This document shows, one piece after another, positions 37,827 through 51,341 of a stretch of DNA of 60,980 nucleotides. The DNA is from Synechococcus sp. GreenBA-s (GTDB lineage Bacteria > Cyanobacteriota > Cyanobacteriia > PCC-6307 > Cyanobiaceae), in assembly GCF_024345855.1 (NCBI RefSeq), contig NZ_JAGQBX010000011.1, forward strand, positions 1 to 60,980. Reading direction: 5' to 3'. The notes beneath the pieces are model-generated. The model saw nothing but the letters and a program-made list of their open reading frames with translations, had not been told where the DNA came from and did no database searches. Each line of letters opens with the position of its first letter. Position 1 is the first letter of the stretch. Made by a program: the position numbers and the translations under genes.

Positions 37827-38480
37827 CTAGACGCCGGCGGGCAGCTCCAGCACGGTGCCCTCCGCCACCACCCAGCGCCGCAGCCCCGGCGGGCAGGGGT
37901 GGCCGCCGGTGAGTCGGCCGAAGGAGGGCAGCAGCAGCCGCGGTGCCTGGGGGTCGAGGGCGAAACAGGGCAGCCGCAGCCGGTCGGCGCCGGGCCGGCC
38001 CGCCCTGCCGCCCCCCAGCAGCGCCACCGGGTGCAGGTGCCCGCAGACGTTGAGCAGGCCCGGCGCGCCCGGCGGCTCCGGTTCATGGCTCAGCCAGAGC
38101 GGGCCGCGCCGCTGGGAGGGCTGGGCCGGCAGCCCCTCGATCCAGCTGCCCCGCTCATGGTTGCCGCCGATCAGCCCGAAGCGGCAGCCCAGCAGCTCCG
38201 GAAGGGCCGCCAGCTTGGCGCGCAGCTCCGCCGTCAGGCCCAGGCGGCTGTGGATCAGGTCGCCGAGCACCAGCACCTCGGCCGGTCGCAGGCGGTGGGC
38301 CAGCTCCAGCAGGGGATTGAGGGTGGCGCCGTCGCCGTCGCTGGGCAGGGGCACGCCCTGGGCCTGGAAGCTCTCGGCCTTGCCCAGGTGCAGATCCGCC
38401 AGCAGCAGCAGGCGCTCGCCCGGCAGCCAGAGCGCCCGCTGCGGCAGCAGCTCCAGCGTGCTTTCCCCCCAGATCAGCAC
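37827..38480 (-). CDS. pdeM: Ligase-associated metallophosphoesterase/endonuclease PdeM (MPE)
   Basis: 217 residues, a calcineurin-like phosphoesterase. The five metal motifs are visible: LLLADLHLGK near residue 27, LVLGDLIHSR, GGNHERGSW, WLSHEPEP and CGHLHPVALL. The length and the HLGKAESFQAQG stretch mark the family encoded with Lhr-type helicase, ATP-dependent ligase and MBL exonuclease. The Pseudomonas member is a manganese-dependent single-strand DNA endonuclease. Here the partners are at 45.0-51.3 kb on the same strand, separated by unrelated genes. It follows the GST gene by 10 bases. Confidence 0.9.
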   Translation of the reverse strand: MLIWGESTLELLPQRALWLPGERLLLLADLHLGKAESFQAQGVPLPSDGDGATLNPLLELAHRLRPAEVLVLGDLIHSRLGLTAELRAKLAALPELLGCRFGLIGGNHERGSWIEGLPAQPSQRRGPLWLSHEPEPPGAPGLLNVCGHLHPVALLGGGRAGRPGADRLRLPCFALDPQAPRLLLPSFGRLTGGHPCPPGLRRWVVAEGTVLELPAGV

Positions 38481-38490
38481 GGCGGCGCGC

Positions 38491-39069
38491 TCAGGCCAGG
38501 CCCATCACCGTGCGGTAGGCGGGTCGGGCCTGGGTGGCGGCGATGGTGGCCTGCACGTGGGGCCAGGGGCTGAGGTCGATCTGGGGGAAGAAGATTGGCA
38601 GGTAGGCCAGGTGGGCGTTCACGGCGCAGTCGGCCACGCTCCAGCCATCGCCCAGCAGGGGCCCCTTGGCCAGCAGGGCGTCGAGCACCTCCATCAGGCG
38701 CGGGAATTCCCGCTCGCGGCTGCTGGGCACGAACAGGGCGGTGGCCAGGGTGGCGTTGGCGAACAGCACCCACTGCTGGGCCAGGGCCCGCTCGGCCGGG
38801 CCGACGAGCTCGCCGCCGTAGCGCTCCGCCAGATAGAGCAGGATCGCGCCGCTCTCGAACAGCTGCAGCCGGCCGCCCGGCAGGGCGGGATCCTCATCCA
38901 CCAGGGCCGGCACCTTGCCGAAGGGGTTGATGGCCGTGAAGGGCTCGGCGCGGTGCTCGCCGGCCTCCAGATCCAGCACGGTCCAGCTGTAGGCGATGCC
39001 CCGTTCCGCCATGTACCAGCGGGGCATCGAGGCGCGGCTGCGCAGGCCGCCGTAGAGGGTGAGGGCCAT
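38491..39069 (-). CDS. Glutathione S-transferase family protein
   Basis: 192 residues from the ATG at 39069 (MALTLYGGLRSRA). Thioredoxin-like N-terminal domain with the cis-proline/glutathione-binding region GKVPALVDEDP and ESGAILLYLAERYG; helical C-terminal domain with the capping motif WSVADCAVNAHLAYLP. No catalytic Ser or Cys is obvious at the N-terminus beyond Tyr/Ser candidates. Substrate unknown. The in-frame ATG at 39096 would add nine residues. Upstream are GC-rich inverted repeats (39120-39150) in the divergent control region. Confidence 0.9.
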   Translation of the reverse strand: MALTLYGGLRSRASMPRWYMAERGIAYSWTVLDLEAGEHRAEPFTAINPFGKVPALVDEDPALPGGRLQLFESGAILLYLAERYGGELVGPAERALAQQWVLFANATLATALFVPSSREREFPRLMEVLDALLAKGPLLGDGWSVADCAVNAHLAYLPIFFPQIDLSPWPHVQATIAATQARPAYRTVMGLA

Positions 39070-39119
39070 CGGGAAGCAGGGAAGCAACCCCATCATCCCG
39101 CCGCGGCGCGTGGGCCTGG

Positions 39120-39188: not shown

Positions 39189-41447
39189 ATGGCGTTGAAC
39201 CGTGGGGTGCCAGTGCCGGAGCCGCAGCTGAGCACCACCGCGGCAGACGCCGCCGCCGCCACCAAGGCCCCCGCCGAGGCAACCCCCGCCGAGGCAAGCC
39301 CCGTGGAGGACGCCCCCGCCGAGCCCCGCGACACCGGCAGCTCCGCCGCCTCCGCCCTGCCCGAGGCCTTCCGCCGGCTGGCGCCCCATGCGGTGGGCCG
39401 CACCCGCCGCGGCGTGGTGGGCAGCAGCCGCTACGCCCGCAACCTGCGGGAGGCGATCCGCCGCGCCGCCGAGGATCCCGCCGCCGGCCCGGTGCTGCTG
39501 GTGGGGGAGCCGGGCCTGGAGAAGGACAACCTCGCCGCCCTGATCCACTTCGGCTCGCCCGCCCGCCACCAGCTGCTGGTGCGCTTCGATGGCGCCCTGC
39601 TCGACGCCGATGGCAGCGACCTGTTCGGCAGCGCCAGCGGCGCGGGCGACGATGCCCTGCTCGACACCCTCGGTGCCGGCTCGCTGCTGATCGACAAGCT
39701 CGACCAGGTGCCCCAGGCCCTGGTGCCCGCCCTGCTGGAGCTGGCCCGCAGCGGCCGCTGGACGTCGCCGGGCGGCATGGGCCCGGCGCGTCAGTTCCAG
39801 GGGCGGCTGTTCTTCACCAGCGAGGCGGCGCAGCCGAGCTTCGATCGGGTCTGCACCCTGATCCGGGTGCCGCCGCTGCGGGTGCGCCGCCAGGACCTGG
39901 GGGAGTGGATCCGCTACGGCGTGCGCCAGCGCAGCCGCAAGCTCGGCTGGGCGCAGCCGCCGGAGGTGCCCGAGGCCGCGGTGAAGCGCCTGCAGAGCTA
40001 CGACTTCCCCAACAACCTGCGCGAGCTGGAGGTGCTGATCTACCGGGCCCTGCAGCAGGCCCGCCAGGTGCAGCCCGAACTGCGCGAGCTGCCGGAGGAC
40101 GTGTTCTGGACCACCCCCCGCCAGCAGCGCCTGCGCTTCGACCTCTGGCGCTGGAAGCCCCAGCTGCGCGACTGGATGCGCTCGCCGCGGCTGTGGAACG
40201 GCCTGTTGTTCGGCCTGGTGAGCTGGGTGTTCGTGCTGGTGAATCTCTGGCTGTGGCTCGGCCCCCAGGACCGGTCCCACAACGGGGCCCTCAACCTCTT
40301 CTGGGCCTGGTGGTGGCCCCTGATCCTGTTCACCTATCCGCTGGTGGGACGGCTGTGGTGCTCCTTCTGCCCGTTCATGGTGTGGGGCGAGATCACGCAG
40401 CGCCTGGCCCGGCGCCTGGGCTGGCAGCCGGCGGCCTGGCCCCGGGGCAACAGCGACGTCTGGGCCTCGCCGATCCTGGCGGCGGGCTTCGCGGCGATCC
40501 TGCTGTGGGAGGAGACGGCGGACCTGCTCAACACGGCCTGGCTGAGCAGCTGCCTGCTGCTGCTGATCACCGCCGGCGCCGTGGTGGGCTCGCTGCGGTT
40601 CGAGAAGCGCTTCTGGTGCCGCTACCTCTGCCCGGTGGGGGGCATGAACGGCCTGTTCGCCAAGCTCTCGATCCTGGAGCTGCGGGCCCAGGCGGGCACC
40701 TGCAGCGGCAGCTGCAGCACCTATGCCTGCTTCAAGGGCGGCCCCGCCGATGGCGAGGGGATGGCCACCGCCGGCTGCCCGCTCGGCACCCATCCGGCCC
40801 ACCTGGCCGACAACCGCAACTGCGTGCTCTGCCTCACCTGCGCCCAGGCCTGTCCGCACCGCTCGGTGCAGCTGAGCCTGCGCCCCCCCGCCGCCGATCT
40901 CCAGCGCGACATGGCTCCGCCGGTCGGGGAGCCGGGCCTGATCCTGGTGCTCGCCGGCGACATCTGCCTGCACCACTGGTCGAAGCTGCTGGGCTGGCTG
41001 CCGCTGGCCCCCGAGAGCCTCAGCGCCGGGCCGCTGCTGCCGCGGCTGGCCTTGGCCACCCTGGCCCTGGCGATCCCCTCGGCCCTGTTCCTGCTGGCGC
41101 GGCTGGCCTTCTCCAGCGTGAGGCTGCGGCGCACCCTCTACGGCCTGCTGCCCCTGATCTGGGGCCTGTTGCTGGCGCGGCACCTGCCGGTGGGCATGGC
41201 CGAGGCCGGCAGCCTGCTGCCGGTGAGCGTGGCGCCGCTGGATCCGGCCTGGGCCGCCGGCCTGCCGGCCTGGCGTGCCGACCCCCACGTGATCGCCTTC
41301 TGCCAGAGCGCGGCGGTGCTCACCGGCCTGGTGGGGGCGCTGGTGGTGCTGCGCCGGCTGCTGCAGACGAGCCGGCTTGCCTGGGGCGGGGCGTCGCTGC
41401 TGGCGCTGCTGCTGGCCGCCGCCGGCCGCTGGCTGGTGGCGGTCTAG
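39189..41447 (+). CDS. Degenerate sigma-54-activator-type AAA+ domain fused to membrane 4Fe-4S polyferredoxin
   Basis: 752 residues from the ATG at 39189. Residues 1-60 are Ala/Pro/Thr-rich. Residues about 70-310 align with the AAA+ domain of NtrC-type activators: VVGSSRYARNLREAIRRAA, a Walker-A-like VGEPGLEKDNL (105-114) lacking GxGK, DLFGSASGAGDD in place of ELFGHxxGAFTGA, a weak Walker B LLIDKLD, and VPPLRVRRQDL and FPNNLREL. Residues 335-752 resemble NapH/NosR-type proteins: about six or seven helices, WCSFCPF (390-396), WCRYLCP (476-482), further cysteines at 505, 509, 514 and 530, and CVLCLTCAQACP (545-556). It probably relays electrons at the membrane; ATPase and sigma-54 contact look lost. 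Confidence 0.85.
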   Translation: MALNRGVPVPEPQLSTTAADAAAATKAPAEATPAEASPVEDAPAEPRDTGSSAASALPEAFRRLAPHAVGRTRRGVVGSSRYARNLREAIRRAAEDPAAGPVLLVGEPGLEKDNLAALIHFGSPARHQLLVRFDGALLDADGSDLFGSASGAGDDALLDTLGAGSLLIDKLDQVPQALVPALLELARSGRWTSPGGMGPARQFQGRLFFTSEAAQPSFDRVCTLIRVPPLRVRRQDLGEWIRYGVRQRSRKLGWAQPPEVPEAAVKRLQSYDFPNNLRELEVLIYRALQQARQVQPELRELPEDVFWTTPRQQRLRFDLWRWKPQLRDWMRSPRLWNGLLFGLVSWVFVLVNLWLWLGPQDRSHNGALNLFWAWWWPLILFTYPLVGRLWCSFCPFMVWGEITQRLARRLGWQPAAWPRGNSDVWASPILAAGFAAILLWEETADLLNTAWLSSCLLLLITAGAVVGSLRFEKRFWCRYLCPVGGMNGLFAKLSILELRAQAGTCSGSCSTYACFKGGPADGEGMATAGCPLGTHPAHLADNRNCVLCLTCAQACPHRSVQLSLRPPAADLQRDMAPPVGEPGLILVLAGDICLHHWSKLLGWLPLAPESLSAGPLLPRLALATLALAIPSALFLLARLAFSSVRLRRTLYGLLPLIWGLLLARHLPVGMAEAGSLLPVSVAPLDPAWAAGLPAWRADPHVIAFCQSAAVLTGLVGALVVLRRLLQTSRLAWGGASLLALLLAAAGRWLVAV

Positions 41448-42819: not shown

Positions 42820-44877
42820 TCAGGCGGGCGGCTGCGGCAGCTCGGGGGCGACGTCGATGAAACCGGCCCCGCCGTGTTTGGCCCGGTACATCGCGGCGTC
42901 GGCCGCGTTGAGCAGCCCGTCGGCATCGAGGGCATGCTCGGGCCAGTGGGCAATGCCGATGCTCAGGGACACCGCCACCGAGCCGGGCAGTTCCGGGTAG
43001 GGCTGCGCCACCGCGTCCCGCAGGGTCTGGGCCAGCGTCACCAGCTGCGGCAGCTCGGGCGCCTGGGGAATCAGCAGCACGAACTCGTCGCCGCCCTGGC
43101 GGCAGAGGATGTCGGATTCGCGCAGCTTCTCCCGCAGCCGGTTCGCCACCAGCTGCAGCAGCTGGTCGCCGACGCCGTGGCCGTGGGTGTCGTTCACCGG
43201 CTTGAAGCCGTTGATGTCCATGAACATCACCGCCACCTGGTATTGGTAGCGCCGCGCCATGGCCAGGCCCTGCTCCAGCTGTTGCATCAGCAGGGCCCGG
43301 TTCGGCAGGCCCGTGAGGTAGTCGTGGGTGGCCTGGTGGCGCACCGCCTCCTGCTCCTCATGGCGCTCGGTGATGTCGCGCAGCATCCCCACGAAGTTGG
43401 TGATCTGCAGGTTCTTGTCGAGCACGGCATTGATGCTGAGCTCATGGCGCCGCAGCTGGCCGTTGCGGTGCCGGTTCCAGATCTCGCCGTGCCAGTGGCC
43501 CTGCTGGATGACGCTGTCCCAGAGGTCGCGGTAGAAGGCCTCGTCGTGCTGGCCCGACTTGAGCAGGTTGGTCTTGCGGCCATGGGCCTGCTGGCGGGAG
43601 TAGCCGCTGATCTCGGTGAAGGCCTCATTGCTGGCGAGCACGAAGCCGTTGGCGTCGGTCACCACGATCGCCACCGGGCTGTTCTCGAACACGGTGGTGG
43701 CCAGGGCCTGCTCCCGGCTGGCCCGGTCCGCCAGCTGGAGCGCCCGCTGCAGCCTGAGCTGGCTGTCCACCAGGGTGCGCAGGCCCAGGGCCGCCGCGAG
43801 GCTGATGGCGATGCCCAGCAGACCCGAGATCACGAGGGTGCTGCTGAATCCGTTGGGGCTGATCTGGTCGGGGGGCAGCTGGATGCCGATCAGCCAGTCG
43901 CGGTTCGCGACCCGCAGGGTTTGCCAGGTGGGGTGCTGCAGCCGCGGCGTTCCATGCACCTTCTGGCTGTCGAACAGCAGGGCGCTGGCCAGGGGCTTCG
44001 AGCCGTCGAAGATCAACACCGCACTGCGGGCCAGGGTGGGGTTCTGGATCGAGGCCAGGGTGGCGCGCAGCAGGTCCTCCATCCGCAGGGGCGCATAGGC
44101 CCATCCCTGCAGATGGCGCAGGCGATCGGCTTCGGATCGGGGCTCCTGGTGGTAGATCGGCAGGAAGAGCAGGCTGCCGGGCTGCACGCGCTTCCCCGCC
44201 TCCTGCATCAGCTTCACCGGGCCGCTGAGGGCGGGGCCCCCGGTGCTGGCTGCCCACTGCATCGCCTCGCGGCGGGTGGGCTCGGAATACATGTCGAAGC
44301 CGATGGCGCGCTGGTTGCGCCAGTCCAGGGGCTCGAGAAAGAGGATCGCGCTGGTGAGGGGGCGGTTGCCCGCCGGGCGCACCCGGAAATCCTGTAAACC
44401 CTGTTTGCGGGCCCGGGCCTCCAAGGCCGGGATGCCGCCCGGCGGGATCACCGCGGCGTAGCCCACCCCCTGCACCCCCGACAGGGTCGAGGGGGAGATG
44501 GAGAGGGACCGGTAGAACTGCTGGAACTCCGGTGACGTGACGTCGACTGAGCTGTGGAACAGGCCCACCACCGCCGAGAGCACGGCCTGGGTGCTGGTGA
44601 ACTTGGCTTCGATGGCGCTGGTGAGGTCCTCGGCCAGGTCGTGCTCGATCCGTTCGTGTTCGTCGCGGCCCAGGCGACGCTGGCCCTCGCACACCACCGC
44701 CGTGAGGCCCAGGCCCAGGCCCAGCATCAGCCACGGCAGGGTCTGGAGTGTCGGCCGGCGCAGCCGCTGGCTCCCCTGGGCGATGGCACCGCCGATGCCG
44801 CTCTTCAGCCGCGTCGGCCATGGGGCGCGCTGCCCCTGGGTTGGCTCGGAGGATGGCTTGGGGGGCGAGGCGGGCAA
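42820..44877 (-). CDS. CHASE-PAS-GGDEF membrane diguanylate cyclase
   Basis: 685 residues. The first helix is at about 47-65, and a CHASE-type periplasmic sensor (VQGVGYAAVIPPG, AIGFDMYSEPTRREAMQ) lies at about 80-320. The second helix is near 345-365. A PAS domain with PAC segment runs from about 395 to 510 (VFENSPVAIVVTDANGFVLASNEAF; MLRDITERHEEQEAV), and GGDEF from about 515. The cyclase site is intact (DYLTGLPNRALL; MDINGFKPVNDTHGH; RQGGDEFVLL). An RxxD product-inhibition site is present just before it (RESD). Stand-alone; a 148-base AT-richer leader precedes it, with copy 2 of the inverted repeat. Confidence 0.92.
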   Translation of the reverse strand: MPASPPKPSSEPTQGQRAPWPTRLKSGIGGAIAQGSQRLRRPTLQTLPWLMLGLGLGLTAVVCEGQRRLGRDEHERIEHDLAEDLTSAIEAKFTSTQAVLSAVVGLFHSSVDVTSPEFQQFYRSLSISPSTLSGVQGVGYAAVIPPGGIPALEARARKQGLQDFRVRPAGNRPLTSAILFLEPLDWRNQRAIGFDMYSEPTRREAMQWAASTGGPALSGPVKLMQEAGKRVQPGSLLFLPIYHQEPRSEADRLRHLQGWAYAPLRMEDLLRATLASIQNPTLARSAVLIFDGSKPLASALLFDSQKVHGTPRLQHPTWQTLRVANRDWLIGIQLPPDQISPNGFSSTLVISGLLGIAISLAAALGLRTLVDSQLRLQRALQLADRASREQALATTVFENSPVAIVVTDANGFVLASNEAFTEISGYSRQQAHGRKTNLLKSGQHDEAFYRDLWDSVIQQGHWHGEIWNRHRNGQLRRHELSINAVLDKNLQITNFVGMLRDITERHEEQEAVRHQATHDYLTGLPNRALLMQQLEQGLAMARRYQYQVAVMFMDINGFKPVNDTHGHGVGDQLLQLVANRLREKLRESDILCRQGGDEFVLLIPQAPELPQLVTLAQTLRDAVAQPYPELPGSVAVSLSIGIAHWPEHALDADGLLNAADAAMYRAKHGGAGFIDVAPELPQPPA

Positions 44878-45025: not shown

Positions 45026-47581
45026 TCAGCCCGTCCCCTCGGCCCGCTGGGCCTCCCGCACCAGCCGCTGCACCCGCTCCAGCAGCGATTCGTTGCTCAG
45101 CCGGCTGTTGAGGCGCTCCACCAGCAGCGGAAAGGCCAGGGGCCCGGGCCGCCGCGGCGTCTCCAGCACCCAGCGGCTCTCCGCCAGGCGCTGCAGGGCG
45201 GCCGCCAGCCGGGGCAGCTCCAGCTGCTGCTCGATCACCTCCCGCCGCGCCTGCTCCAGCAGCCGGTGACCGGGCTCGTGCTTCTCGAACACGTCGAACA
45301 GCAGGGCGGCACTGATCTGCAGCTGGCCTCCCTGCGACTGACCTCCCTGCCGCTGCCCGCCGCCCCTGGTCTGGCCGGGCAGGCCGTTGTGCACCAGGCC
45401 GCTGATCTGGGCGATGGCGCGGAAGCGGCGGCGGCAGAGCTCGGAGAGGTTCACCGCCTGCTCTAGATCGGCCTCCAGTTGCTGCTGATCCAGCAACGCA
45501 TCGCCGTGGAGCTCCAGCAGCTCGGCGAAGGGATAGCCCCTGGGCGCCAACAACTCAAAGCCGTAGTCGTTCACCGACACGGTGATCGTGCTGGGGCGGT
45601 GGCGCGCCAGGCGCCAGGCCCACAGGAAGCCCAGGCCCTCGTGCACGAAGCGTCCCTCGAAGGGGTAGGCGAACAGGTGGCTGCCCTCGCGGCTGCTGCA
45701 CACTTCCACCAGCAGCTCCTCGGCGCGGGGCAGGCGCGAGAGGTCGGCCTGGCGGCGCAGCAGCGGTTCGAGGGCCCGCAGTTCGGGGCTGTCGAGGTCG
45801 CCCTCGGCGCAGCGGTGCACCTCCTGGCGCAGCTGGCGGCTGAGCAGGTCCGAGAGGGCCAGCTGGCCCCCGGCCCAGGCCGGTACCGTGCTGCTCTTGC
45901 GGGTGGTGGCCTTCACCTGGGCCGTCATCTGCCGCAGCCGCACGAACTCCAGCTGGCGGCCCGCGAAGAAGAACACATCCCCCGGTTTGAGCCGGCCGAT
46001 GAAGGCCTCCTCCACGTGGCCCAGCACCGCCCCCCGCACGAAGCGCACCGTCACGGCCCGATCGGCGGTGATCGTGCCGATGTGGAGGCGGTGCAGGCGG
46101 GCGATGGCGGTCTCGCGCACCACGTAGGCGAAGGGCTGCCCCGGCTCCGGCGTGGCGTCGCGATCGAGGCGGCCGTCGGGCCTGAGGGCCGCCCGCTGCA
46201 GCTTGCGGTAGCGGGGGTAGGCCCCCAGGCACTCGCCGCCCTCCTCCAGGAAGCGCAGGCACCAGGCCCAGTCGGCGTCGCTCAGCTGGCGGTAGCTCCA
46301 GCAGCGCCGCACCACCCGCAGCTCCCGCTCCGGCACGAAGCCCGGCCCGCAGGCCAGGCTCACCAGGTGCTGCAGCAGCACATCCAGCGGCAGCCGCGGT
46401 GGCCGCCGCGTTTCCACCAGGCCCTCGGCCAGGCCCCGCCGCATGGCGCTCACCTCCAGCAGCTCCAGGGCGTTGGTGGGCATGAACAGCACCTGGGCGG
46501 TGCCGCCGGGGGTGTGGGCGCTGCGGCCGGCCCGCTGCAGCAGCCGCGCCAGGTTCTTGGCCGAGCCGATCTGCACCACCCGCTCCACCGGCTGGAAATC
46601 CACCCCCAGGTCCAGGGAGCTGGTGGCCACCACCCAGCGCAGCTGGCCCGCCTTCACGCCCGCCTCGATCGCCTCCCGCTCCCCGCGGTCGATGGCGCTG
46701 TGGTGCAGGGCCAGGGCCCCCTCCAGCTCCGGGCAGGCGTAGCGCAGGCACTGGTGCCAGCGCTCGGCCTGGTTGCGGGTGTTGGTGAACAGCAGCGTGG
46801 AGATCGCCGGATCGAGGGCGGCCACCAGCTCCTCGTACATGCGCAGGCCCAGGTGGCCGGCCCAGGGGAAGCCGTCGATGGCCTCCGGCAGCAGGCTGCG
46901 GATGGCGGTGCCGCGCCGCAGCGCCGCCGTGATCAGCGTGGGCACCGTCCCCACCCCCACGGCCACCTGGGCCGCCTCCTCGAGGTTGCCGATGGTGGCG
47001 CTGAGGGCCCAGGTGCGCAGCTCGCCCCGCAGGGCCCGCAGCCAGCCCAGGCACAGCTCGCTCTGGCTGCCGCGCTTGCTGCCCATCAGCTCGTGCCACT
47101 CGTCGAGCACCACCGCCTGCAGCTGGCCGAACAGCTCCGGCGCCTTCGGATTGCTGATCAGCAGGGCCAGCGATTCGGGCGTGGTGATCAGGATCTGGGG
47201 CGGCGTGCGCAGCTGGCGGGTGCGCTCGCTGCTGGGGGTGTCGCCGTGGCGGATGCCCACCCGGATCGGCCAGCCCATGGCCTCGATCGGCTGCTGCAGG
47301 GCCAGGGCCAGGTCGCGGCTGAGGGCCCGCAGGGGCGTGAGCACCAGCAGGCGGATGCCGGGGGAGAGCCCCCGCCCGCTGCCGCGCTCCGCCACCCCGG
47401 CCTCGGCCAGCAGGTCGGCGATCGGGCCCATCACGGCGGCGTAGGTCTTGCCGGAGCCGGTGGGCACCTGGATCAGGCCGCTCTCGCCGCGCAGGTGGGC
47501 GCGCCAGCTCTGGCGCTGGAACGGCAGCGGCCGCCAGCCCTGCTGGGCAAACCAGGCCTCGATCGGTGCCAGGCGCTTCAT
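45026..47581 (-). CDS. Ligase-associated Lhr-Core-type DEXH helicase
   Basis: 851 residues from the ATG at 47581. SF2 motifs: Walker A VPTGSGKTYAAV near residue 45, motif Ia TPLRALSRDLA, motif II VVLDEWHELMG, motif III LSATIGN, motif IV LLFTNTRNQAE, motif VI QRAGRSAHTPGG. The length and C-terminal domains fit Lhr-Core, a 3'-to-5' ssDNA-dependent translocase/helicase encoded with ligase, exonuclease and MPE. A Gly/Gln-rich insertion (GGGQRQGGQSQGGQ near residue 755) is probably lineage-specific. The start overlaps the LysR-like gene's stop as ATGA, so translation is coupled. Last gene of the operon. Confidence 0.93.
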   Translation of the reverse strand: MKRLAPIEAWFAQQGWRPLPFQRQSWRAHLRGESGLIQVPTGSGKTYAAVMGPIADLLAEAGVAERGSGRGLSPGIRLLVLTPLRALSRDLALALQQPIEAMGWPIRVGIRHGDTPSSERTRQLRTPPQILITTPESLALLISNPKAPELFGQLQAVVLDEWHELMGSKRGSQSELCLGWLRALRGELRTWALSATIGNLEEAAQVAVGVGTVPTLITAALRRGTAIRSLLPEAIDGFPWAGHLGLRMYEELVAALDPAISTLLFTNTRNQAERWHQCLRYACPELEGALALHHSAIDRGEREAIEAGVKAGQLRWVVATSSLDLGVDFQPVERVVQIGSAKNLARLLQRAGRSAHTPGGTAQVLFMPTNALELLEVSAMRRGLAEGLVETRRPPRLPLDVLLQHLVSLACGPGFVPERELRVVRRCWSYRQLSDADWAWCLRFLEEGGECLGAYPRYRKLQRAALRPDGRLDRDATPEPGQPFAYVVRETAIARLHRLHIGTITADRAVTVRFVRGAVLGHVEEAFIGRLKPGDVFFFAGRQLEFVRLRQMTAQVKATTRKSSTVPAWAGGQLALSDLLSRQLRQEVHRCAEGDLDSPELRALEPLLRRQADLSRLPRAEELLVEVCSSREGSHLFAYPFEGRFVHEGLGFLWAWRLARHRPSTITVSVNDYGFELLAPRGYPFAELLELHGDALLDQQQLEADLEQAVNLSELCRRRFRAIAQISGLVHNGLPGQTRGGGQRQGGQSQGGQLQISAALLFDVFEKHEPGHRLLEQARREVIEQQLELPRLAAALQRLAESRWVLETPRRPGPLAFPLLVERLNSRLSNESLLERVQRLVREAQRAEGTG

Positions 47582-48483
47582 CGGTCCGCCGGCGGCGATG
47601 TGATCACCAGTTCGCCATGGGCGGCGGCCCAGGGCTCGAGCCGCTGGCGCAGCAGCTCCGCCAGGGCCAGGGTGCGCGGGTGCTCGGCCCACTCACGCCG
47701 CACCACCAGCGCCTCGCCGCTGCGGATCGGCAGCTGCAGCGGCAGCCGCACCAGCTGCCCCGCCACCTGCTCGCTGAGCACCGTGGCGTAGCCCACCTGC
47801 AGCTCCTGTTCGCTCTTGCCCTCCCAGCGCTGGCGCTGGTAGCGGGCCATGCGGATGGGGCTGCTCCACAGGCCCAGGGCCCGCAGGCTGGCCTCCACCT
47901 TGGGGTAGGTGCCGGGCGGCAGGGCCAGCGAGGGGAAGGCGGCCACATCGTCCCAGTCGAGCGGCCCCCTCCGCTCCAGCTGCTGCAGCAGCGGATGGCC
48001 CGGCGCCACCACCAGATGCACGGGCATCGTGCACACCTCAAGCGTGCGGAAGGTCGGGTCGTCGGGCTCGGGCCAGTCGGGGCCCCCGGTGAGCCAGGCG
48101 TCGATGACGCGATCGTTCAGCCACTGCAGCGGCCGCTGCACGCCCACGGTGTCGTGGCGGCCGCCCAGCCAGCCCTCCGGCTCCGGGGTGAGCAGCAGCG
48201 GTCCGCTCCAGTAGGTGCCCTCGATCCGCAGCAGCCCCTGGCCCAGCCAGCGGGCCGTCTGGTGCACGTGGCGCTCCAGGGCCAGCAGCGTCAGGTTCGG
48301 CTCCGGGCCCTCGACCTCCCATTCCTGCTCGCGCTTCAGCAGCTTCAGCTCGAACAGCCCCAGGGCCTGGTTCACCCGCCGGCTCACGTTCGACTGGTTG
48401 AGGACCAGCCGCTCGCCGGCCTCCTGGCCGGAGCGCAGCCACAGGCTCAGGTCCAGGGCGGCGAGTCTGTCGAGGCTCAGCAT
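47578..48483 (-). CDS. LysR-type regulator-like protein inside the DNA-repair operon
   Basis: 301 residues from the ATG at 48483. The N-terminus reads as a divergent winged helix-turn-helix (LDLSLWLRSGQEAG, recognition-helix-like NQSNVSRRVNQAL, then FELKLLKREQ). The rest resembles a LysR effector domain (MPVHLVVAPGHPLLQQ, DVAAFPSLALPPGTYPKVE, SGEALVVRREWAEHPRTLALAELL). It overlaps the ligase stop by 7 bases and the helicase start by 4, so it is made together with the repair enzymes. A longer open frame to 50859 is the ligase shadow. Regulator role is inferred from fold only. Confidence 0.8.
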   Translation of the reverse strand: MLSLDRLAALDLSLWLRSGQEAGERLVLNQSNVSRRVNQALGLFELKLLKREQEWEVEGPEPNLTLLALERHVHQTARWLGQGLLRIEGTYWSGPLLLTPEPEGWLGGRHDTVGVQRPLQWLNDRVIDAWLTGGPDWPEPDDPTFRTLEVCTMPVHLVVAPGHPLLQQLERRGPLDWDDVAAFPSLALPPGTYPKVEASLRALGLWSSPIRMARYQRQRWEGKSEQELQVGYATVLSEQVAGQLVRLPLQLPIRSGEALVVRREWAEHPRTLALAELLRQRLEPWAAAHGELVITSPPADR

Positions 48484-50246
48484 CCAGGCGCCCCGTCGCC
48501 GCTGGCCTGGGCCCCGTCCGCAACCTGCAGCAGGGCCAGGGCCGAGGCGAGCGTGTCGGCCTCGCGGGCGGGCTTGTCGCGGCGCCAGCGGGCGATGCGG
48601 GGAAAGCGCACGGCGATGCCGCTGCGGTGGCGCCGGGAGGGCTGCAGCCCCTCGAAGGCCAGTTCGAACACCTGCAGGGGCTCCACCGCGCGCACCGGCC
48701 CGAAGCGCTCGATCGTATGGCTGCGGATCCAGCGATCGAGCTCCGCGATCTCGGCGTCGCCCAGGCCGGAGTAGGCCTTGGCGAAGGTCACCAGCGCCGG
48801 TGCGGGCGCCTCCGGCGGGGGCGCTTCGCTCCAGAGGGCAAAGGTGTAGTCGGTGAACAGGTTGGCGCGGCGGCCGCTGCCGGCCTGGGCATACACCAGC
48901 ACCGCATCGAGCCGCAGGGGCTCCAGCTTGTGCTTCCACCACGCGCCGCGGCGCCGGCCCACCCCGTAGGGGGAGGCGGCGGCCTTGAGCATCAGCCCCT
49001 CGGCCCCGGCGCTGCGGGCCTGCTGGCGCAGGGGCTCCAGCCCGTCCCAGGCGGGCAGGGGCAGCTGCGGGGAGAGGCGCAGGAGCCCGGCTGCGGGAGT
49101 GGCCGCCGCCGCCGGGAGCTCCTGCAGCAGCGACTCCAGGGCGGCGCGGCGCTGGCTCAGGGGCCGGGGGCGCCAGTCCTCGCCGTCCCGTTCGAGCAGG
49201 TCGTAGGCCACGAACACCGCCGGACACGCCGCCAGGAGCGCCCGGCCCGGGGCCCGGCGGCCCAGGCGGCGCTGCAGCTGGGCGAAGGGGGCCGGCCGCT
49301 CGGCCCCCTCGGGCCACACCAGCACCTCGCCATCGAGCACGCTGCCGTCCGGCAGGGCGGCGGCGGCGGCGATCAGCTCGGGGAAGGCGGCGTTGATCAG
49401 CTCCTCGCCGCGGCTCCACAGGAAGCCCTCGCCGCCGCGGCGGATCAGCTGGCCGCGGATGCCGTCCCACTTCCACTCCGCCAGCCAGGCGCCGGCCGGG
49501 CCGGGCAGGGGCGGGTCGCCGGGGTCGTCCGGGGGCTCCAGGGGCGAGGCCAGGCAGAAGGGGTAGGGGCGGCTGATCGGGCCGTCCTCGCCGCCGGCGG
49601 GGGCCAGCAGCGCGTGCCAGGCCGCCGCGGCGGGGTGGCGGCTGTCCCGCTCGGGGCCGGCGAGCTGCAGGCCGCCCATCAGCCGGTGGGCCAGCAGCGA
49701 CGGCTCCAGGCCGCTCACCTGGCTGAGGGCGCGCAGCACCAGGCCCTGGGCCACCCCCACCCGGAAGCCGCCCGTGAACAGCTTGTTGGCCACCAGCAGG
49801 GCGCCGGGCTCCAGGCCCCGCCAGAGCCGGCGCACCGCCTGGGCCTGCTCGGCTCCCTCCAGGGCGGCGGCGGCCGGCAGCAGCTCCGCCATCCAGCGGT
49901 GCAGGGGCTGCTCCAGCAACGGCTCCGGGAGGGAGCCATCCGCCGCGGGCCGGCCCTGCTCGGGCTCCAGCTGGCGCCAGAGCAGGGCGATGGTCTCGGC
50001 GGTGTCGCCCACCTGGGCGTAGCAGTCGTCGAACAGCCACTCGGGCAGGGTGCTGCCCTCCAGGGCGATCTGGCGCAGGCGGCGGCCGGTGATCAGGCGC
50101 CGGCGCTGCTTGCCCAGGAGCAGATGCAGGGCCCAGGCGGCATCGGCGGGGGCGGCGGCGGCGAAGTAGGCGGCCAGGGCCTCCACGCGGGCGCTGGTGC
50201 CGCTGCAGGCATCGAGCTCGCCGAACAGGGCGGTGAAGCGGCGCAT
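48477..50246 (-). CDS. ATP-dependent DNA ligase
   Basis: 589 residues. The adenylation motif is AEWKWDGIRGQL near residue 232, where the lysine of KWDG takes the AMP. Motif III is VLDGEVLVW, motif IIIa VFVAYDLLE, motif IV EGLMLKA and motif V WWKHKLEPL. An N-terminal helical DNA-binding domain and C-terminal OB domain complete it. Cyanobacteria use NAD-dependent LigA for replication, so this is a repair ligase. It starts three bases after the exonuclease stop, and its stop overlaps the LysR-like start. Confidence 0.95.
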   Translation of the reverse strand: MRRFTALFGELDACSGTSARVEALAAYFAAAAPADAAWALHLLLGKQRRRLITGRRLRQIALEGSTLPEWLFDDCYAQVGDTAETIALLWRQLEPEQGRPAADGSLPEPLLEQPLHRWMAELLPAAAALEGAEQAQAVRRLWRGLEPGALLVANKLFTGGFRVGVAQGLVLRALSQVSGLEPSLLAHRLMGGLQLAGPERDSRHPAAAAWHALLAPAGGEDGPISRPYPFCLASPLEPPDDPGDPPLPGPAGAWLAEWKWDGIRGQLIRRGGEGFLWSRGEELINAAFPELIAAAAALPDGSVLDGEVLVWPEGAERPAPFAQLQRRLGRRAPGRALLAACPAVFVAYDLLERDGEDWRPRPLSQRRAALESLLQELPAAAATPAAGLLRLSPQLPLPAWDGLEPLRQQARSAGAEGLMLKAAASPYGVGRRRGAWWKHKLEPLRLDAVLVYAQAGSGRRANLFTDYTFALWSEAPPPEAPAPALVTFAKAYSGLGDAEIAELDRWIRSHTIERFGPVRAVEPLQVFELAFEGLQPSRRHRSGIAVRFPRIARWRRDKPAREADTLASALALLQVADGAQASGDGAPGC

Positions 50247-50249
50247 GGG

Positions 50250-51341
50250 CTAGGCGAGCGGAGGCGCCACAGCTGGCGGCGCCGGTTCCGCGCCGTCCGG
50301 GTCCTCGCCGCCGCGCTCGGCGCTGAATCCCCCCTCCAGCGGCTCGGCGCTGATCGCCTCCACCTCGCGCAGGTAGCGGGCCAGGCCGTCGCTGTTGCCG
50401 TGGGTCACGTACACCTGGCGGGCGCCGCTCTGCCGCACGCTCTGGAGCAGCCCCGGCCAGTCGGCGTGGTCGGAGAGCACGAAGCCGCGCTCGATGCCGC
50501 GGCGGCGGCGGGCGCCGCGCACGGCCATCCAGCCGCTCACGAAGGCCGTCTGCGGCCGCTGGAAGCGGCGCATCCAGGGCGCGCGCTGGGCCGCGGGCGG
50601 TGCGATCACCAGCCGCCCGGCCAGCGACTCTCCCCGTGCCAGCTCGCTGACGGGCCGCGTGGGTGGCAGGGCTACGCCGGCCTCGCGGTAGGGCTCCATC
50701 AGGGCCTGCACGGCCCCGTGCAGCAGGATCTCGCCGCCCTCGGCCCCGGGCTGGCCCGCCTGGCCCACCCCGAGGGCCGCCAGCTCCGCCAGCACCCGCT
50801 GGGCCTTGCCGAAGGCGTAGCAGAAGAGCACGGAGGTCTGCTCCGGCGCCGCCTGCCACCAGGCCAGGATCTCCTGGGCCACCGCGGTGCCGCCCTGCCA
50901 GCGGTAGATCGGCAGGCCGAAGGTGGCCTCGGTGATGAACACATCGGCGCCCACCGGCTCGAACGGCGCGCAGCTGGGGTCGGCGCAGCGCTTGTAGTCG
51001 CCGCTCACCAGCCAGCTCTCGCCGCCGGCCTCCAGCCGGATCTGGGCACTGCCCAGCACGTGGCCTGCTGCATGGAACGACACGCGGGCGTCGCCGATGC
51101 GATGCGCCTGGCCGTAGTCCACCGGGATCAGGTTGATCGTGGCGCCCAGGCGCTGGCGCAGGATGCCCTCGCTGCTGCCGATGGCCCAGTACTCCCCGCA
51201 GCCGGGGCGGGCGTGGTCGGCGTGGGCGTGGCTGATCAGGGCCCGGGGCACCGGGCGCCAGGGGTCGATCCAGGCCGCCGCCGCCCTGCAGTAGAGCCCC
51301 TGGGGGGTGAGCTCCAGCAGGCTGCCGGCGGGGAGGGGCAT
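50250..51341 (-). CDS. Ligase-associated metallo-beta-lactamase-fold exonuclease
   Basis: 363 residues, MBL/beta-CASP type related to SNM1 and CPSF nucleases. The metal motif is LISHAHADHARPGC near residue 37, VSFHAAGHVLGSAQI supplies a later histidine, LVSGDYKR the aspartate, and VLSDHADWPGLL and VYVTHGNSDGLARYL the C-terminal motifs. Acts with the ligase and helicase in the ligase-associated repair set. ATG at 51341 preceded by GGAG seven bases away; probably the first gene of the operon. Confidence 0.93.
   Translation of the reverse strand: MPLPAGSLLELTPQGLYCRAAAAWIDPWRPVPRALISHAHADHARPGCGEYWAIGSSEGILRQRLGATINLIPVDYGQAHRIGDARVSFHAAGHVLGSAQIRLEAGGESWLVSGDYKRCADPSCAPFEPVGADVFITEATFGLPIYRWQGGTAVAQEILAWWQAAPEQTSVLFCYAFGKAQRVLAELAALGVGQAGQPGAEGGEILLHGAVQALMEPYREAGVALPPTRPVSELARGESLAGRLVIAPPAAQRAPWMRRFQRPQTAFVSGWMAVRGARRRRGIERGFVLSDHADWPGLLQSVRQSGARQVYVTHGNSDGLARYLREVEAISAEPLEGGFSAERGGEDPDGAEPAPPAVAPPLA

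Follow-up and report, generated by a model that had tools for sequence, protein, structure and literature searches.

In the cyanobacterium Synechococcus sp. GreenBA-s, one gene encodes a fusion of an AAA+ domain of the kind found in sigma-54 activators with a membrane polyferredoxin. It lies at positions 39189-41447 of contig NZ_JAGQBX010000011.1 (assembly GCF_024345855.1), whose 60,980 nucleotides are called the window below. The fusion belongs to a cyanobacterial family in which the AAA+ half, judged by its motifs, is a pseudo-ATPase in every aligned member and not the product of recent decay in the window gene, and in which the twelve cysteines of the membrane half are invariant. Our best explanation of the whole, put forward tentatively and with less than even confidence, is a membrane polyferredoxin for electron transfer to which the pseudo-AAA+ domain would contribute a docking or oligomerisation platform.

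The gene runs from an ATG to a TAG on the plus strand and encodes 752 residues without a stop inside the frame. A preliminary description, made from the sequence alone, had read it as one continuous frame joining an NtrC-type AAA+ region to a multi-helix cysteine protein, and this reading is borne out, with Pfam domains over their cut-offs on either side and with all the quoted motifs in place (GEPGLEKDN, PPLRVRRQDL, FPNNLREL, WCSFCP, WCRYLCP, four further cysteines and CxxCxxCxxxCP). The parts are as follows.

39189-41447, plus strand: whole gene, a pseudo-AAA+/lid/NapH-like membrane polyferredoxin fusion of subfamily I (open reading frame, translation, Pfam, family conservation)
39189-39362, plus strand: Ala/Pro/Glu-rich N-terminus, residues 1-58, where other lineages have a Crp-like cNMP_binding domain (alignment)
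39417-39878, plus strand: NtrC-type AAA+ core, by motif a pseudo-ATPase, residues 77-230 (Pfam, PDB sequence matches, model against DmpR 6iy8)
39504-39530, plus strand: altered Walker A GEPGLEKDN, residues 106-114 (alignment)
39687-39701, plus strand: Walker B region LIDKL, residues 167-171, Asp retained and Lys in place of the catalytic Glu (alignment)
39870-39899, plus strand: PPLRVRRQDL, residues 228-237, the preceding activator segment with the FRxDL arginine-finger motif missing (motif search)
39879-40124, plus strand: AAA lid, residues 231-312, with FPNNLREL (residues 273-280) at 40005-40028 (AAA_lid_14, E 7.6e-9)
40176-40667, plus strand: NapH-like four-helix membrane module, residues 330-493 (Fer4_5, NapH profile below cut-off, AlphaFold2 helices, loop charges)
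40701-40856, plus strand: cysteine domain, predicted cytoplasmic, with C505, C509, C514, C530, C545, C548, C551 and C555 (invariant cysteines; Fer4 match at 542-557 below cut-off)
40926-41444, plus strand: C-terminal membrane part, residues 580-752, about five more predicted helices (AlphaFold2 model m358322488337, hydropathy peaks)

Curated Pfam cut-offs are exceeded by Sigma54_activat (residues 77-196, E 2e-6), AAA_lid_14 (residues 231-312) and Fer4_5 (PF12801; two stretches, the best at 457-493, E 2.9e-8, 34 bits against a cut-off of 22). Among NCBIfam models, the first half of the protein matches bacterial enhancer-binding proteins (bEBPs) and the second half (379-562) matches NapH/MauN, all far below their cut-offs. 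Sequence matches of the AAA+ core in the PDB are NifA, PspF and NtrC1, and an AlphaFold2 model of 694 residues (mean pLDDT, the predicted local distance difference test, 79.5) superimposes on DmpR 6iy8 (Z 19.2, root-mean-square deviation (rmsd) 3.7, 230 aligned) and NtrC1 1ny5 (Z 18.9, rmsd 3.8, 228 aligned). The fold and lid and the PPLR and FPxNLREL elements are those of the bEBPs of the NtrC/PspF/NifA type (PF00158). The family differs from them in lacking the GAFTGA loop, the Walker-B glutamate, the FRxDL motif and a DNA-binding domain, and in being joined to a membrane protein.

The state of the ATPase was assessed in an alignment of 166 distinct members with frames of at least 640 residues (the window, 78 loci of named close relatives and 87 other loci), of which 129 were first classed as subfamily I and 37 as subfamily II. 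A motif of the type of GAFTGA, the loop through which activators contact sigma-54, occurs in none of the 166, even with a relaxed pattern, which agrees with its absence from the window protein as described earlier. The Walker-B glutamate is likewise missing in all of them, its place being taken by Asn, Gln, Lys, Cys, Gly, Arg, His or Asp, and so is any FRxDL-type motif, which in bEBPs marks the arginine-finger segment. It is because these three elements are missing throughout that we regard the pseudo-ATPase state as a property of the whole family. The Walker A of bEBPs is GESGTGKE; in the GEPGLEKD of subfamily I the lysine and the following acidic residue are retained and mostly Glu stands for the last glycine, so that the Walker A described earlier as changed is altered only in part. 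GEPGLEKDN itself is found in 101 of the 129 subfamily I sequences as first classed, the glycine before the P-loop lysine in 20 of the 129, and the lysine in all 166 aligned rows, which were selected by length. From these motifs, nucleotide binding has likely been lost in the AAA+ domain of subfamily I. Some members (e.g. L010, L011) lack the stretch that follows LFG, and in the nine members scanned with Pfam no helix-turn-helix (HTH) or other output domain, and no DNA-binding domain, was seen.

That the protein could still be a functional sigma-54 activator, as its profile match to bEBPs would allow, has next to no probability. We reject it on the complete absence of GAFTGA from the alignment together with the failure to find an rpoN domain in its own genome; the lack of a DNA-binding domain in the scanned members also speaks against it. 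The rpoN model PF04552 has no match in that genome, which is 99.84% complete, as the preliminary description had expected of a cyanobacterium; 4 of 14 control genomes were positive, including Escherichia coli and Bacillus subtilis. It is also rare in the class, with matches at E <= 0.001 in 5 of 388 Cyanobacteriia genomes, two of them over the cut-off and both short frames. The stronger of these matches (L215:1459-2067, genome G125) is a lone 202-residue frame with the sigma-54 DNA-binding domain (E 7e-17), and the frame showed none of the remaining parts of RpoN. In the portion of a published survey cited here, sigma-54 and its activators were lacking from all 29 cyanobacteria examined (PMC3162934).

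The distribution of the family was followed in a phylum sample of 292 genomes and a class sample of 388 Cyanobacteriia genomes, two candidates being scored for each class genome. Matches at E <= 0.001 were found in 121 of the 292, and with a subfamily II query in 295 of the 388, of which 261 reach E <= 1e-50; in the 34 genomes whose best E is weaker than 1e-50, the matches may be other AAA+ proteins. Among the phylum matches listed outside Cyanobacteriia only the polyferredoxin part is matched, except in G106, which has two matches of the AAA part. The simplest reading of the phylum and class samples would be that the fusion took place in an ancestor of Cyanobacteriia. Among the best 80 of 564 matches, the nearest named relative of the window protein is from Vulcanococcus limneticus LL (94% identity), and the other two sampled genomes of the same genus (G181, G525) have no strong family match. 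A frameshift or assembly join is ruled out because the majority of long matches in the phylum sample show this fusion as a single open frame; it is also one frame in the 165 other distinct aligned sequences, which were selected as open frames of at least 640 residues. Exceptions with an in-frame TGA among the phylum matches listed are those of G201, G272 and G257 and the second match of G116, and one stop each was found in six further listed class matches (G314, G295, G446, G365, G470, G159). In G257 (L014) a break near the cluster domain divides the family gene between two frames, either as a pseudogene or through a sequencing error. None of 72,556 plasmid records is covered at 80% by the window protein, and at the same cover the subfamily II query recovers two, its own record and another cyanobacterial one; 22 pattern matches in viral contigs include no relative by tblastn. 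Full-text searches of the open-access literature, a body that leaves subscription journals mostly outside, listed no paper whose title or abstract opening describes the fusion. Some public records label the family gene as a nitrogen-assimilation or sigma-54 regulator.

In a tree built from membrane columns alone, with all AAA traits excluded, one branch sets 88 rows of subfamily I apart from 26 of subfamily II (Shimodaira-Hasegawa-like approximate likelihood ratio test, SH-aLRT, 100), although this was a quick search for which the program warns of long branches meeting. The window gene belongs to subfamily I. Members of subfamily II, which in the first set share 32-38% identity with the window protein, have a canonical GKTF P-loop in 37 of 37 sequences as first classed, the Walker-B Asp in 17 of 37 and Asn for Glu in 34 of 37. 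Some genomes (e.g. G294, G338) carry one match of either kind, judged by identity.

The membrane half presents the opposite picture to the AAA+ motifs. All twelve cysteines (391, 394, 477, 481, 505, 509, 514, 530, 545, 548, 551 and 555) are present in all 166 aligned members, and the combination of decayed ATPase and intact cluster domain that had been proposed for the window protein extends in this way to the family. The WCSFCP and WCRYLCP motifs lie close to where helices 2 and 4 of the NapH-like module are predicted to reach the cytoplasm; when the membrane half is modelled alone (mean pLDDT 80.0), its helices fit four in this module and some five beyond the cluster domain. In one sequence, loop charges weakly favour a cytoplasmic location for both cysteine pairs and the eight-cysteine domain, on the same side as the AAA+ domain. 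Mean pairwise identity, taken from up to 400 random pairs in each of three groups, places the NapH-like core above the AAA core every time (0.85 vs 0.60, 0.80 vs 0.58 and 0.82 vs 0.57), and in the C-terminal membrane part of subfamily II it is 0.68. Against the nearest relative (L035), dN/dS is lowest in the NapH-like core (0.076), followed by the AAA core (0.16), the lid (0.175) and the C-terminal part (0.188); against five more distant relatives the ranges are 0.38-0.53 for the AAA core, 0.14-0.20 for the NapH-like core and 0.33-0.55 for the C-terminal part. By these ratios the AAA core is retained under purifying selection and is less constrained than the NapH-like core. The earlier suggestion of a co-opted AAA+ domain is in line with a pseudo-ATPase that selection has kept, but its specification as nucleotide-free is a presumption, and the sister subfamily has its P-loop in canonical form.

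The weaker conservation of the AAA core, together with the deletion after LFG in some members, could mean that the AAA+ half is an inert leftover and that the membrane part alone matters. A stand-alone membrane relative does exist, the 4Fe-4S protein WP_027463891.1 of Deinococcus ficus, which shares 31% identity (97/313) with all twelve cysteines aligned and differs in lacking both AAA and Crp domains, the preceding gene being without a Pfam match. The cluster part can hence be regarded as independent of the AAA+ domain, since this relative aligns at every cysteine; more distant relatives of the membrane half without AAA+ are found in haloarchaea. We nevertheless consider a relict very improbable, as purifying selection on the AAA core (dN/dS 0.16-0.53) and the invariant P-loop lysine, albeit in length-selected rows, both argue against it.

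Electron transfer by the membrane and cluster part is favoured because this is the part that never varies; the full cysteine set of the stand-alone Deinococcus relative also speaks for it. The module resembles NapH/MauN and NosR-type polyferredoxins in its four membrane helices, its two Cys-pair-Pro motifs and its CxxCxxCxxxCP; it differs in that its first pair is Cx2CP instead of Cx3CP, in the additional C-terminal membrane part and cytoplasmic AAA/Crp modules, and in that no flavin mononucleotide domain was matched. The NapH/NosR type assigned to the membrane part in the preliminary description is accordingly supported by resemblance to the NapH profile and qualified by its score: TIGR02163, the best NCBIfam match that is not a transcription regulator (E 1.5e-12), reaches 47.6 bits against a cut-off of 213.05. 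For NapH, the part of the literature cited here proposes that the membrane portion oxidises quinol and that its CX3CP motifs matter (PMC5928378). The fusion, the conservation, the loss of motifs and the gene linkage of subfamily II are established by the data, whereas clusters, topology, link to quinone, docking role and direction of electron flow are inferred. In this picture a cytoplasmic-side partner would exchange electrons with the quinone pool or with ferredoxin. The NapH-like module would consist of helices one to four and the two cysteine pairs, and the eight further cysteines would make up a cytoplasmic domain holding two [4Fe-4S] clusters, with a third if the cysteine pairs bind one. 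The bEBP-derived AAA+ domain would no longer remodel sigma-54 or hydrolyse ATP in the usual way, and would persist as a folded platform in the cytoplasm, responsible for oligomerisation of the protein, for docking and gating of its partner, or for both, the Crp-like domain, where present, being a further regulatory input. Subfamily II, with cysteine synthase beside it and micro-oxic or sulfide genes often nearby, might play the same role in sulfur or low-oxygen metabolism, and subfamily I, including the window gene, may be a version whose partner its neighbours do not reveal.

Several points weigh against this explanation. The NapH match lies below its cut-off, and the enzymes that NapH and NosR supply are periplasmic, while the fusion protein showed no domain on that side. 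The Fe-S segment of the membrane-half model (residues 189-237) has a pLDDT below 50, and a Foldseek search of the PDB with the membrane half gave nothing significant (best E 0.18). In subfamily I, conservation of the C-terminal membrane part is at the level of the AAA core (0.61 vs 0.60; 0.56 vs 0.58). An invariant set of cysteines would equally be expected of an Fe-S sensor. A third cluster is made less likely by the cited part of the work on NosR, which gives at most eight Fe for each protein and favours a disulfide for the CX3CP pairs (PMC5928378). A VIA search of the PDB with the membrane half gave a best Z of 5.8 (rmsd 3.2, 110 aligned), which is uninformative for helical proteins, and NosR, NapH and CcoG were not among the structure-search matches listed, a result that leaves their likeness standing.

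The main rival is a one-component membrane redox sensor, in which the clusters would read the quinone pool, oxygen or sulfide and signal their state to the Crp-like and AAA+ domains, these would bind a regulatory partner, and electron transfer would be the input only. This is possible, if on balance somewhat unlikely. Crp-like and bEBP modules are regulatory in well-known cases, the P-loop of subfamily II is competent on paper, and this subfamily often lies near low-oxygen or sulfide genes. A Crp-like domain is present as well in two further membrane Fer4_5 proteins encoded by the GreenBA-s genome; these large proteins (L213:7407-10328 on contig C12 and L214:6316-9153 on C54) end in cNMP_binding and share with the fusion the recurring pairing of membrane polyferredoxin and Crp-like domain, but differ in domain order and in having no AAA+ match, the one compared being weakly similar (E 7e-5). 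The L213 gene lies behind genes resembling a nitrate transporter (NrtA-B-C-D by eye). Against a sensor stand the absence of an HTH or output domain from the nine scanned members and the fact that decay and loss have struck the regulatory modules. Outside Cyanobiaceae, the family to which the window genome belongs, members are mostly frames of about 840-900 residues that open with a Crp-like domain (cNMP_binding over the cut-off in both subfamily I members scanned, L015 and L020, and in 5 of 6 of subfamily II); the window protein has no Pfam match to it, and its nearest relative L035 has an N-terminus of similar kind. This domain of the longer members is therefore not visible from the window. 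Since the trait of a long or short N-terminus requires 10 changes on the membrane-column tree, the domain has been lost, or starts have been misplaced, more than once. A short subfamily II member without it (L121:5138-7291) is followed by a possible cobalamin-related gene (by eye). In cyclic-nucleotide binders, FGE is a motif of the phosphate-binding cassette; among members with a long N-terminus, an FGE-like motif occurs in 2 of 52 of subfamily I and in none of 37 of subfamily II, and RSA/RTA-like residues occur in 14 of 52 and 18 of 37. With FGE nearly absent, the usual binding of cyclic nucleotides by this domain is doubtful.

Gene neighbourhoods set the two subfamilies apart. For subfamily I we used 25 distant loci with mechanical calls of open reading frames, the paralogue L123 in G054 and the Cyanobiaceae loci L125-L130 being excluded, and no gene family recurs at more than 5 of the 25. 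The neighbouring nitrite, nitrate, nitrous-oxide, copper or iron functions envisaged earlier thus find no backing, as no recurrent neighbour of subfamily I was found at these loci. Cysteine synthase (cysK), by contrast, occurs in 19 of 29 subfamily II stretches vs 0 of 25 for subfamily I (Fisher p 1.9e-7, only a guide because some of the 29 loci come from related genomes). Of the 19 cysK genes, 18 are downstream of the subfamily II gene and share its strand, 11 of these at 50 bases or less or overlapping and none more than 1,125 bases away, and in L173 cysK lies 6.8 kb upstream; one representative cysteine synthase exceeds the cut-off of TIGR01139. At least one of ten micro-oxic or sulfide markers (psbA, SQR, ArsR, AcsF, heme oxygenase, HemN, CydA, NrdG, HdrB and PetC, chosen after the neighbours had been seen) is present at 19 of 29 loci vs 2 of 25 (p 1.6e-5). 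No single low-oxygen or sulfide marker differs significantly between the subfamilies (p 0.11-0.49), only cysK and the pooled set doing so, and 4 of the 29 loci (L119, L121, L179, L180) have neither cysK nor a marker. Among ten neighbour proteins compared with NCBIfam, cysK, psbA, AcsF, ArsR and CydB exceed a cut-off, and NrdG, CydA, the SQR-type protein, HdrB and a thioredoxin-reductase-like protein fall below; heme oxygenase and HemN were named by eye and PetC was taken from plasmid annotation. On plasmids of Aulosira laxa and Pseudanabaena galeata, cysteine synthase is next door, with PetC and a photosystem Q(B) protein nearby. In the sections cited, the chlAII-ho2-hemN cluster and psbA1 are described as micro-oxic genes (PMC4500134), and sqr as occurring with arsR in cyanobacteria (PMC5061849). 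In L118 (5064-10333) and L120 the subfamily II gene is near heterodisulfide-reductase-like subunits (the HdrB-like one of L118 below cut-off); no cysK is present in either stretch.

The linkage of the sister subfamily to cysteine synthase would also suit an assembly or maturation factor, in which the pseudo-AAA+ domain is a scaffold for inserting sulfur, Fe-S or metal into a client and the membrane part supplies electrons. AAA+ proteins are often remodelers, and a haloarchaeal relative of the membrane part has as neighbours a metal-dependent regulator, a metal transporter and P-type ATPases. However, ATP-driven remodelling is unlikely because the catalytic glutamate and FRxDL are missing in all 166 members, and no recurrent client gene lies beside subfamily I, so that we hold such a factor to be decidedly unlikely.

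If electron transfer is the role of the family, a gene carried by about two thirds of the sampled Cyanobacteriia genomes, and in part mislabelled as a regulator whose essential elements it has lost, would probably encode a membrane electron carrier, and a corrected label would open an unexplored component of the quinone/ferredoxin network. One could go further and imagine a new cyanobacterial redox device, a conduit between the plastoquinone pool and a cytosolic carrier (alongside NDH-1, and either ferredoxin-quinone or sulfur-linked) that would be gated, in its flux or its assembly, by the pseudo-AAA+ domain, recycled from a sigma-54 activator, and the Crp-like domain, one paralogue serving normal growth and the other sulfidic or micro-oxic life with cysteine synthase; in this extended form the proposal is doubtful. 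The link between subfamily II and cysK offers an experimental handle on adaptation to sulfide and low oxygen, and the family would exemplify a transcription motor turned into a structural part of a redox protein.

Around the fusion gene of the window, comparison with 80 named close relatives and 22 further loci, limited to the recurrence of window genes, revealed local synteny only. A glutathione S-transferase gene (38491-39096, minus strand) adjoins the fusion gene and has matching frames at 49 of the 102 other loci compared. On the other side, also on the minus strand, are a CHASE-PAS-GGDEF protein (42820-44877), an Lhr-type helicase (45026-47692) and an ATP-dependent DNA ligase (48477-50246). 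The helicase and ligase genes, with the frames at 37827-38480 and 50250-51341, neither of which has a Pfam match at E 1e-4, perhaps form a ligase-associated DNA-repair cluster.

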